A stretch of DNA of 61,949 nt, from positions 1 through 61,949 of the forward strand of contig JAHJQM010000021.1 in assembly GCA_018819285.1 (NCBI GenBank), written 5' to 3'. The DNA comes from Candidatus Omnitrophota bacterium. Its GTDB lineage: Bacteria; Omnitrophota; Gorgyraeia; Gorgyraeales; Gorgyraeaceae. Every line of letters starts with the position of its first letter. Position 1 is the stretch's first letter. The position numbers were made by a program, and so were the translations under genes. Below the pieces are notes generated by a model, which searched no databases, was not told where the DNA came from, and worked only from the letters and a program-made list of their open reading frames with translations. This document shows positions 21,610 to 24,712 of this stretch, piece after piece.

Positions 21610-22005
21610 ATGACAACGCAGAATGTAATATGGGCTACAGGAAGGCGAAAGCGAGCAATTGCCCGCGTACGGTTAATAACAGGAAGCGGCGAGATAGAGG
21701 TCAATAAAAAGTCTCTTGAAGAGTACTTTGAAAGACCTACGCTTAAAATGATTGTTATGCAGCCCATACATGCTGCAAATATTGGGAATAAATTTAATAT
21801 AATTGCGACTGTTGAAGGCGGAGGGAAATCCGGTCAGGCAGGCGCATTGAGGCATGGAATTTCCAGGGCCATAGCGCTTACCAGCGAAGAGCTGAGAGTT
21901 TTATTGAGAAAGAAAGGCTTTCTTACAAGAGACTCGAGAAAAAGAGAAAGAAAGAAGTACGGCCAGAAAGGAGCTCGCAAGAGATTCCAGTGGACAAAGA
22001 GGTAA
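21610..22005 (+). CDS. rpsI: Small ribosomal subunit protein uS9
   Basis: 131 residues with the S9 signatures ATGRRKRAIARVRL at the N-terminus and GGGKSGQAGALRHGISRAI in the middle. The C-terminal tail KKYGQKGARKRFQWTKR reaches the decoding centre and ends in the expected Lys-Arg. It is cotranscribed with rplM. An F3 structured element and an intrinsic terminator follow. Confidence 0.98.
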   Translation: MTTQNVIWATGRRKRAIARVRLITGSGEIEVNKKSLEEYFERPTLKMIVMQPIHAANIGNKFNIIATVEGGGKSGQAGALRHGISRAIALTSEELRVLLRKKGFLTRDSRKRERKKYGQKGARKRFQWTKR

Positions 22006-22013
22006 CTTATAAG

Positions 22014-22176
22014 TCCGAACTTATCCTTGACATTTTGCGGGGGATTTGAACGCACTAGAAGCCAGTTGTTTTAATGTACTGCGCAAAATGTCAAGGATTA
22101 ATTCGCACAATCAAAGAAGCAATTCGGAGCAGATTCAGTTACGGCAACTAAAGTTGCCGTAACTGAAGTGCTCATT
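22014..22176. repeat. F3 composite structured element, copy A (before argC)
   Basis: A perfect 17-bp stem (22023-22039 / 22082-22098) encloses a 42-nt loop. The 76-nt core it forms recurs at 24557-24632 with only two loop changes. An outer helix pairs TCCGAA (22014-22019) with TTCGGA (22123-22128). A separate 13-bp perfect hairpin (22136-22148 / 22153-22165, loop TAAA) follows, then the constant AGTGCTCATTA. The outer helix and 3' hairpin differ in sequence from copy B but are paired in both. Confidence 0.85.
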
Positions 22177-22236
22177 AAACGCCTATCCAGTCATTTTCCG
22201 ACGAGAAATAAATTGACAGGGTAGGCGTTTTTGTTT
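22177..22236 (+). terminator. Intrinsic terminator of rplM-rpsI overlapping the argC promoter
   Basis: A 12-bp stem (22177-22188 / 22219-22230, one G-U pair) is followed by TTGTTT after the stem's own TTT run. The 30-nt loop holds the -35 box of the argC promoter, so the terminator and the promoter share DNA. Confidence 0.65.
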
Positions 22237-22241
22237 ATAAT
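22213..22241 (+). promoter_or_regulatory. Perfect-consensus promoter of the arginine/lysine gene run
   Basis: TTGACA at 22213-22218, a 17-bp spacer and TATAAT at 22236-22241. Both hexamers match the sigma70 consensus exactly. The start near 22248 gives a leader of about 20 nt with GGAGG before the argC ATG. Confidence 0.85.
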
Positions 22242-22268
22242 CTTAATATTCTATACACGGAGGATTGT

Positions 22269-23288
22269 ATGTTAAAAGTCGGCATAATGGGCGCAAGCGG
22301 TTTTGCAGGAGAAGAACTTATAAGGATATTGCTTGCTCATCCTGAAGTTAAAATTACAGCCTTGGCGGCAAAGATAGAAAGGATGCATGTATCTAAATTA
22401 TATCCCTGGTCAAAGGCTATGCTTGACATGGATTGTTTTGACATGAGAGCAGAGGATATAGGTAAAAAGACAGACGCTGTGTTTCTGGCGCTGCCTCACA
22501 AGGTTTCAATGGATTTTGCTCCCGTGCTTTTGAAACAAGGTAAGAAGGTAATAGATTTAAGTGCTGATTTCAGGATAAAGGATATTGCGGTATATGAAAA
22601 GTGGTATGAGATAAAACATGAATGCCCTGAATATTTAAAAAACTCAGTTTATGGGCTTCCTGAATTATATAGGAGAGATATCAAGGCTGCGGATTTAATA
22701 GCGAATCCAGGATGCTATCCTACAAGTATTATTTTAGGATGTGCACCTTTCTTAAAAAAGAAAATAGTGGATACGGATTATATTATCTGCGACTCCAAGT
22801 CAGGCGTGAGTGGGGCAGGAAGGTCCCCTGTCCAAGCTTTGATGTTTACAGAGATAGCTACCAATAGTTTCAGGCCTTATAAGGTCAATTTCCACAGGCA
22901 CATGCCTGAGATAGACCAGGAACTGAGCAATTTGGCAGGCGTGAAGATAGACGTAAATTTTACTCCGCACCTTGTTCCAATGGAAAGAGGGATTTTGAGC
23001 ACTATTTATCTGAAGCTTGCTAAAAAGATAAATACAAAAGAAGCGCTCGAGATTTACAAGGATTTTTATAAAGGCGAATATTTTGTAAGGGTTTTGGAAG
23101 ACGGGCAATTGCCTGACACGAAAAACGTAGTAAGGTCTAATTTCTGCGACATAGGCATAAAGGTTTTTCCTGAAAAGTCACTAGCTGTAGTCATGACTGC
23201 TATTGATAATCTCGTAAAAGGCGCGAGCGGACAAGCTGTGCAAAATATGAATATTATGTATGGATTTGAAGAGAAATTAGGGCTGTAA
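22269..23288 (+). CDS. argC: N-acetyl-gamma-glutamyl-phosphate reductase
   Basis: NADPH-dependent reduction of acetylglutamyl phosphate, third step of arginine synthesis; 339 residues. The N-terminal GASGFAGEELIRIL binds the nucleotide. Catalytic Cys lies in ANPGCYPTS near residue 149, and the substrate-binding FHRHMPEIDQE follows near 213. AGRSPVQALM and a late HLVPMERGIL are family signatures. It has an ideal ribosome-binding site and promoter. It is the first gene of argC-J-B-D-F-G-H. Confidence 0.97.
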   Translation: MLKVGIMGASGFAGEELIRILLAHPEVKITALAAKIERMHVSKLYPWSKAMLDMDCFDMRAEDIGKKTDAVFLALPHKVSMDFAPVLLKQGKKVIDLSADFRIKDIAVYEKWYEIKHECPEYLKNSVYGLPELYRRDIKAADLIANPGCYPTSIILGCAPFLKKKIVDTDYIICDSKSGVSGAGRSPVQALMFTEIATNSFRPYKVNFHRHMPEIDQELSNLAGVKIDVNFTPHLVPMERGILSTIYLKLAKKINTKEALEIYKDFYKGEYFVRVLEDGQLPDTKNVVRSNFCDIGIKVFPEKSLAVVMTAIDNLVKGASGQAVQNMNIMYGFEEKLGL

Positions 23289-23289
23289 T

Positions 23290-24492
23290 ATGAAGATTAT
23301 TAAAGGCGGGGTAACAGCGCCAAAGGGTTTTTTGGCAGGGTCAACAAGCTGCGGGATAAAAAAGAGCGGTAAAACTGATCTGACGCTACTATTTTCTACA
23401 ACGCCGTGCGTTGCAACAGGGACATTTACAACTAACAAGGTAAAATCAGGCTCTGTGTTTTTATCTAAAGAGCGTCTTAAGAAAGGCTTTGCTCAAGCAG
23501 TGATAGTGAACAGCGGTAATGCAAATTGTTGCGTTGGCAAAAAAGAAATCAAAGATGCTAAGGAAATAACTGATTTAATTGCTAAAGCGCTAAATTTAAA
23601 GAACGAATCTATCTTAATAGCTTCCACTGGTATTATTGGAAGACCTTTACCTGTCAATAAGATTAGGGATGGGATAAAAGGATTGATTCAGGATTTATCA
23701 AGGTCAAACGGCACGAGTTTCGCAAAAGCCATAATGACTACAGATACTGTTCACAAGGAAATAGCTGTTGAAATAAATATTAAAGGCAAAGTAGTCAAGG
23801 TTGCAGGCGCTGTTAAAGGCGCAGGCATGATATGCCCTAACATGGCAACTATGCTTGCGTTTTTTACAACAGACGCGGCAATAGAAACAAAAGCCTTGAA
23901 ACAGGCATTTAAAGAATCTGTTTATGATTCGTTTAATAAGATAACTATTGACGGAGATATGAGCACGAATGACTCTGCCATAATATTTGCCAATGGCCAG
24001 GCGGAAAATAGTATTATAAAAAATAACACAAAAGATTATGCTATTTTTCTTGATACTATTAAATTTGTGACAAAAGAACTTTCAAGGAAGATTATACTGG
24101 ATGGGGAAGGCGCCACAAGGTTTATAGAAATTATTGTAAAAGGCGCAAAGAGAGAAATGAGCGCGGAACTTGCAGCTAGGCGCATAGCTAATTCAAATCT
24201 TGTAAAGACTATGATAGCTGGAGGAGATCCAAATTGGGGGCGTATAGCTGCAGCCGTAGGTTCTAGCGGGATAGATATAAACCCATGGCGGATGGATATA
24301 TATTTTGGAAAAGTTTTAGTGATGAAAAACGGAGCTGGAACCAATGCGTCAAGGCCTTTGCTTCTGGATATATTCAGAAAAAAAGAAATAGAAGTTGTCG
24401 TTGATTTGAAAACCGGTAATAAGTCTAGTAGGGTTTGGACTTGCGATTTTACAGAAGAATATGTAAAAATAAACGCGGAGTACGAGACTTAA
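23290..24492 (+). CDS. argJ: Glutamate N-acetyltransferase ArgJ (ornithine acetyltransferase)
   Basis: Transfers acetyl from N-acetylornithine to glutamate, recycling the acetyl group; 400 residues. The self-cleavage site that creates the nucleophile is seen as MATML with Thr187. GAVKGAGMI precedes it, and GDPNWGR and the C-terminal TCDFTEEYVKINAEYET are typical. It starts 1 nt after argC. Whether it is also bifunctional with acetyl-CoA cannot be told; the ArgA-like gene at 9697 could supply the first acetyl group. Confidence 0.97.
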   Translation: MKIIKGGVTAPKGFLAGSTSCGIKKSGKTDLTLLFSTTPCVATGTFTTNKVKSGSVFLSKERLKKGFAQAVIVNSGNANCCVGKKEIKDAKEITDLIAKALNLKNESILIASTGIIGRPLPVNKIRDGIKGLIQDLSRSNGTSFAKAIMTTDTVHKEIAVEINIKGKVVKVAGAVKGAGMICPNMATMLAFFTTDAAIETKALKQAFKESVYDSFNKITIDGDMSTNDSAIIFANGQAENSIIKNNTKDYAIFLDTIKFVTKELSRKIILDGEGATRFIEIIVKGAKREMSAELAARRIANSNLVKTMIAGGDPNWGRIAAAVGSSGIDINPWRMDIYFGKVLVMKNGAGTNASRPLLLDIFRKKEIEVVVDLKTGNKSSRVWTCDFTEEYVKINAEYET

Positions 24493-24500
24493 GTGAGGAC

Positions 24501-24544
24501 ATAACTTACGGAGTTATTGACGAATAAAAGGCGACGTAAGTTAT
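24501..24544. repeat. Hairpin between argJ and F3 copy B
   Basis: A perfect 10-bp inverted repeat (ATAACTTACG at 24501-24510 with its complement at 24535-24544) and a 24-nt loop. It lies directly upstream of the F3 element and shares the CTTACG word with that element's variable hairpin. Confidence 0.7.
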
Positions 24545-24547
24545 ATG

Positions 24548-24712
24548 TATGAACTTATCCTTGACATTTTGCGGGGGATTTGAACGCACTAGAAGCCAGT
24601 TATTTTAATGTACTACGCAAAATGTCAAGGATTAATTCGCACAAACAAAGAAGTAACTCATAGGAGATGTACTTACGAAAATCAAAGATTTTCGTAAGTA
24701 CAGTGCTCATTA
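24548..24712. repeat. F3 composite structured element, copy B (leader of argB)
   Basis: It has the same 17-bp stem (24557-24573 / 24616-24632) and nearly the same 42-nt loop as copy A. The outer helix is TATGA (24548-24552) with TCATA (24658-24662). The 3' hairpin is a perfect 15-bp stem (24669-24683 / 24687-24701, loop AAA) of different sequence from copy A. The constant AGTGCTCATTA ends exactly at the argB ATG. An AGGAG (24662-24666) lies before the hairpin and would be about 13 nt from the ATG only if the hairpin is folded. Confidence 0.85.

Follow-up and report, generated by a model that had tools for sequence, protein, structure and literature searches.

A phylum-wide family of small palindromic DNA elements, probably mobile, between stop and start codons in Omnitrophota

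A contig of a Candidatus Omnitrophota bacterium (JAHJQM010000021.1, positions 1 to 61,949; hereafter the window, meaning the whole stretch of 61,949 nucleotides) carries two copies of a strongly folded repeat, one on the argC side and one directly in front of argB. This raises the question of whether the repeat is an RNA regulating the arginine pathway or a mobile palindromic unit with paired variable parts, both of which had been proposed in an earlier note on this DNA. The folding z-scores of copies 1 and 2 were -8.2 and -10.0, with 0 shuffles folding as well, and copy 2 folded as DNA gave z = -9.0. As described earlier, the 17-bp stem is identical in the two copies, the loop has 42 nt in both with the two differences lying inside it, and each copy ends with the constant GTGCTCATTA (22168-22177 and 24703-24712) preceded by a 3' hairpin that is perfect in each copy and unrelated between them (Table 1). 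The 5' half of the element was absent from that description: copy 2 starts with TAAGTGAGGAC at the argJ stop codon and continues into an extra hairpin arm (arm A), and a class-wide pattern search gave TAAGTGAGGNC..GNCCGAACTTA as the family consensus of this left module. At the rpsI site, arm A is still present in genomes G008 and G005, and G000 keeps only the 3' part. The stem-loop region of copy 2 showed 90-98% identity to about 14 other copies in the same genome. The outer helix, which had been thought to change from TCCGAA/TTCGGA to TATGA/TCATA between the copies, proved to be a local coincidence, with complementarity of 0-4 nt in most of the 26 long-spacer copies; the TATGA of copy 2 deviates from the family consensus GNCCGAAC.

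Table 1. Features of the two element copies and of the neighbouring arginine genes (positions in the window)
Feature	Position	Strand	Description
Copy 1, whole	22003-22177	+	starts directly after the rpsI stop codon
Copy 1, left-module remnant	22003..22022	+	rpsI stop TAA, then CTTATAAGTCCGAACTT; arm-A hairpin lost
Copy 1, centre	22023..22098	+	17-bp stem 22023-22039/22082-22098, 42-nt loop (arm C)
Copy 1, right module	22099..22177	+	TAATTCGCAC, spacer, hairpin B (22134-22167), GTGCTCATTA
argC promoter, perfect sigma-70 (TTGACA-17-TATAAT)	22213..22241	+	downstream of copy 1
Copy 2, whole	24490-24712	+	between argJ and argB
Copy 2, left module	24490..24556	+	TAA (argJ stop) GTGAGGAC, arm A (24505-24540), TGTATGAACTTA
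Copy 2, centre	24557..24632	+	17-bp stem 24557-24573/24616-24632, 42-nt loop (arm C)
Copy 2, right module	24633..24712	+	TAATTCGCAC, spacer with Shine-Dalgarno, hairpin B (24668-24702), GTGCTCATTA; abuts argB ATG (24713)
argB Shine-Dalgarno GGAG carried by copy 2	24663..24666	+	putative split ribosome-binding site

Within the window the repeat does occur only next to arginine genes, its two copies flanking argC-argJ-argB, as would be expected of a ligand-responsive leader of argC and argB. This did not hold for the genome as a whole: a search of the source genome with copy 1 returned about 20 full or partial copies in front of unrelated genes, an outcome that the earlier note had named as ruling out a specific arginine role. 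According to a reading of the translated flanks, these genes include rpoB, rpoA, rplV, rpsN, rplR, rpmJ, gyrB and lpxD as well as a YbbR-like gene, a response regulator, kinases including a histidine kinase, and further genes, with several copies on one ribosomal-protein contig (C40). The argC promoter matches the sigma-70 consensus at 12 of 12 positions and is unchanged in the sister species G006, which lacks the element at this site. The promoter overlaps a hairpin and T-run (ACGCCTATCC..GGGTAGGCGTTTTTG) that end the rpsI operon (22177-22241), an overlap kept in relatives with and without the element. Since copy 1 lies upstream of this promoter, it is most likely absent from the argC transcript altogether. 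Congeners have the arg operon without copy 2, the supposed covariation of the outer helix is missing from the family, and an Rfam search gave chance matches only. Copy number, promoter position and empty sites thus rule out an arginine regulator, a reading to which we assign next to no probability; any influence on argC and argB is incidental to the pathway, and the association with arginine genes is due to chance.

The element is about 160-230 bp long, contains no ORF and consists of three hairpins. The left module reads TAAGT-(GA)-GGNC-arm A-GNCC-(GA)-ACTTA, the central palindrome CTTAYCC-arm C-GGRT, and the right module XAAT-(TC)-NNNN-spacer-arm B-N'N'N'N'-(TC)-ATTY, for example TAAT(TC)GCAC-arm B-GTGC(TC)ATTA. 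Read on the other strand, the right module becomes Y'AAT-(GA)-..-(GA)-ATTX'; the two modules thus form an inverted pair, and a tandem G.A mismatch breaks the stem of each. On the top strand this mismatch reads G.A/A.G in the left module and T.C/C.T in the right module, whose bottom strand has G.A/A.G. The element ends, TAAGTGAGSNC and TAATGAGCAC, form imperfect inverted repeats, with TAAGTGAGG and TAATGAG as consensus flanks. What stays constant is the stem base, whereas the arms are perfect palindromes without relation to one another. The free N/N' pair of the left module was complementary in 102 of 105 copies (shuffles: mean 58, maximum 73), the search pattern having fixed part of the anchors, including the GA/GA mismatch. 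Among 53 distinct right modules, which were located by their hairpin, 95.8% of the stem cells were paired, compared with 22-39% in slid-partner controls, and double changes numbered 46 against 8.2 in shuffles that ignore relatedness. The pair types differ even within one genome, several of them recurring (GCAC, GCGC and GCCC in the right modules of G000), and the outermost pair X-Y is T-A, A-T or C-G. The TC/TC mismatch columns were invariant in 53 of 53 right modules, as were the neighbouring columns, which is weaker evidence than the covariation because AATTC and TCA were in part fixed by the module search. A closed four-way-junction cloverleaf with TAAGTGAG/CTCATTA as P1 was considered and dropped because the right end (CATTA, CATTG or CATTT) covaries with the base before the AATTC of its own module and not with the left end.

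The modules recur across the phylum. The left-module pattern TAAGTGAGGNC-N18..48-GNCCGAA was found in 40 of the 292 genomes of the class, with a handful of matches for the reversed-pattern control, and the right-module pattern TTAATTCGCAC-N20..50-GTGCTCATTA in 72 of 384 Omnitrophota genomes, representing 58 of 283 genera, with 0 matches for the reversed control in every genome; right modules extend outside the class (G309 and G337). A search of viral contigs for the modules returned 0, and the literature held nothing on such an element in Omnitrophota. The two copies near the arginine genes are members of an uncatalogued, phylum-wide family of small, very probably mobile palindromic DNA elements.

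Comparison of orthologous junctions revealed empty sites. The argJ-argB junction reads TAATGG in G006 (empty site GAGGCCTAATGG), TTGATGG in G008 and TAA-element-TTAATGG in G000, and the argB site of G005 holds a right module only. Likewise, the rpsS-rplV junction is TAATG in G008 and TAA-element-TTAATG in G000, and G004, G006 and G009 have many further junctions without the element, some with the genes only a few bases apart. TAA stands on both sides of the element; since the element ends (TAA..TTA) resemble the target, a target-site duplication reads the same as an insertion without one. Between rpsD and rpoA, the element of G000 follows AAA and supplies the TAA stop, and that of G011 lies a few bases earlier, its AAG TGA forming the last codon and the stop; the protein end ELYSK is preserved in both, and the two elements are separate insertions at different positions. 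Vertical inheritance accounts for part of the distribution, since two or three congeners have the element at several of the same sites. Shared sites also showed replacement of the arms: at rpsI the right module of copy 1 is common to three species (G005 and G008 have it at the same site in the locus comparison), and arm C is unrelated (CCGCCCTTTT.. in G005, CCGAGCCGCC.. in G008). At gyrB, G000 and G005 have the same irregular left end (TAAGCTGAGG / TAAGTTGAGG) with different arms C, and at rpsN arm B was replaced, the Shine-Dalgarno sequence and the element end being kept. In G005 one hairpin serves as arm A in one copy (L227) and as arm B in another (L228). In two copies (L024 and L027) the central stem-loop is inverted relative to the element ends, presumably via recombination between the 17-bp arms. 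Together, the swapped arms, shared hairpins, inverted loops and partial sites point to an exchange of palindromes at the DNA level.

The elements are strongly co-directional with genes and sit precisely at gene ends. In 75 of 105 copies an ORF of at least 60 codons terminates at the TAA of the element, and in 14 more of the 105 the reading frame ends as T AAG TGA inside the element. On the other side, an ORF of at least 60 codons starts no more than 30 nt downstream of 51 of the 62 right modules, and in 18 of these cases the gap is at most 4 nt. Some right modules also contain sequences resembling ribosome-binding sites: immediately upstream of hairpin B, GGAG/GAGG or a run of G is present in 12 of the 14 long-spacer right modules that abut a start codon, against an internal Shine-Dalgarno sequence in 2 of the 10 long-spacer modules that are followed by one after the element (Fisher p = 0.002, in a comparison that includes orthologous pairs of G000 and G005 and thus has a smaller effective number). 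For argB, the distance between GGAG and ATG is 46 nt in line and 11 nt with hairpin B folded out. In bacteriophage T4, a hairpin shortens the spacing between Shine-Dalgarno sequence and AUG from 22 to 5 nt at gene 38 and from 27 to 11 nt at gene 25 (PMC3014915). The sequence features of such a split ribosome-binding site, namely a Shine-Dalgarno sequence, a stable hairpin and an AUG at a functional distance in the folded state, were all found here, suggesting that some long-spacer copies carry a split site that would restore downstream initiation. As at T4 genes 25 and 38, the hairpin lies between the Shine-Dalgarno sequence and AUG and would reduce the functional distance, which is 11 nt at gene 25 and a predicted 11 nt at argB; unlike there, hairpin and Shine-Dalgarno sequence come with a mobile element present at many genes, where their function is putative. 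The split site is limited to the long-spacer subtype, and many copies abutting ATG lack any Shine-Dalgarno sequence. The short-spacer copies L043, L045, L048, L113 and L122 abut the start codon with no Shine-Dalgarno sequence nearby.

Strong co-direction with genes, placement between stop and start codons, covarying stems, an internal Shine-Dalgarno sequence kept where it is needed and several sites kept in two or three species would also fit a cis-acting regulatory RNA, riboswitch-like or a protein-binding leader, selected for a role in translation or mRNA stability at gene junctions, where it would be more than tolerated, and possibly exapted from a mobile element. However, a riboswitch would be expected at genes of one pathway and with a conserved core or loop, whereas no gene function is common to the sites, most congeners lack the element at the same junctions and Rfam holds no match. 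Moreover, the free exchange of arms and loops and the inverted loop of two copies leave no conserved ligand-binding core. The invariant mismatch of the right module reads T.C/C.T in the transcribed strand and G.A/A.G in its complement, a mirror image of the left module, which follows the logic of a DNA inverted repeat. We therefore consider a regulatory RNA improbable, and slightly more so than the trans-mobilised repeat discussed next.

Among known repeat classes, REP/BIME sequences, as described in E. coli, and REPINs, which are multicopy, intergenic, inverted imperfect palindromes with a conserved stem mismatch (PMC8266576, PMC3116915), come to mind. The mismatch in the palindrome is needed for TnpA_REP activity (PMC8266576). 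Our element shares with them the short intergenic inverted pair of imperfect palindromes, the stem mismatch, the many copies per genome and the mosaic make-up, and Y1 genes are common in the class, as would be the case for a REP/REPIN-type element mobilised in trans by an IS200/IS605-like Y1 (RAYT) transposase. It differs in that the flanks (TAAGTGAGG and TAATGAG) contain no GTAG/CGTC-type tetranucleotide 5' of the palindrome, the stem base is constant and the arms are variable and exchangeable, the sites are stop/start junctions and a third, central palindrome is present. None of 30 Y1 transposase loci was flanked by modules. Carriers such as G068, G076, G092 and G113, the last two of them right-module carriers, have no Y1, and it was absent from 7 of the 40 left-module carriers, about the same rate as class-wide (67 of 292), all rates referring to incomplete draft genomes. 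A link to Y1/RAYT was thus unsupported by both the flanking scan and co-occurrence, and we did not file the element as a REPIN because no Y1 locus was flanked and some carriers have no Y1; this reading is unlikely. The element also resembles MITEs with TA or TAA targets (RUP, Correia and other bacterial MITEs), with which it has in common a size below 300 bp, a non-coding multicopy nature without ORF, imperfect terminal inverted repeats (TAA(G)TGAG) and insertion at TAA. It differs from MITEs in its three hairpins with covarying bases and the in-place replacement of its arms, and no autonomous parent transposon with shared ends was seen among the loci examined; no mobilising enzyme was found.

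The element is present in many copies, its sites are empty in congeners, its hairpin bases are conserved or compensated and its distal arms are replaceable. Copy number, empty sites, stem covariation and arm swapping bear out the second suggestion of the earlier note, that of a mobile palindromic unit, and in our view the repeat is very probably a non-autonomous mobile palindromic DNA element with inverted imperfect hairpins around a central palindrome, inserted between stop and start codons and in some cases equipped with a putative split ribosome-binding site. In the mechanism that we propose, an enzyme would recognise the mismatched hairpins at each end and insert the element at TAA. In tight operons the harmless TAA would be the stop codon, frequently one that overlaps the following start codon (TAATG), which would leave copies exactly between stop and start. 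In some copies the Shine-Dalgarno sequence lies 5' of hairpin B, and folding of this hairpin would place it about 11 nt from the ATG and restore downstream initiation. More tentatively, and with somewhat more doubt than confidence, we suggest a phylum-wide class of mobile DNA that is recognised by the mismatched hairpin base and not by the arms, exchanges palindromic arms in place, inserts at stop/start junctions without harm to either gene and brings its own split ribosome-binding site. The kind of element is ordinary (MITE/BIME-like), the unusual features being the constant mismatched stem bases, the exchangeable arms, the stop/start placement and the putative split site. If the proposal is true, this would add an unlisted family of repeats to a phylum that has hardly been studied, showing how mobile DNA can enter compact essential operons (ribosomal proteins, RNA polymerase, gyrase) without inactivating genes, and it may rewire translation initiation in bacteria with small genomes. 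The structural rule of a constant mismatched stem base with free arms predicts a new enzyme recognising single-stranded DNA or hairpins. It also calls for caution, as strongly folded, covarying intergenic sequences can pass for riboswitches.

Several further loci showed unusual arrangements. A right module lies antisense near gpsA (L361 5870-5927, G000:C30:24369-24426; also L362 in G006), with a Y1 transposase-like gene about 4.3 kb away in both genomes, and by sequence it is also present in G005, G008 and G009. At a contig end of G005 (C60), L047 1501-1704 is a head-to-tail tandem array running off the contig, with a unit made up of the 3' half of arm A, arm C and the 5' half of the right module. 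In six loci (L067, L071, L074, L079, L115 and L116) left modules are fused to a different repeat, GATTGCTTCGGCC..CGCAATGACA, making these loci mosaics of two palindrome families. Upstream of argB and rpoB (L152, L153 and L167; the rpoB loci were found with an approximate query, 81-83% identical to its best matches and used for location only), the congener gaps hold other palindromic families, for example TTCTCGACT..AGTCGAGAA, and it seems that different hairpin repeats come and go between the genes of this genus.
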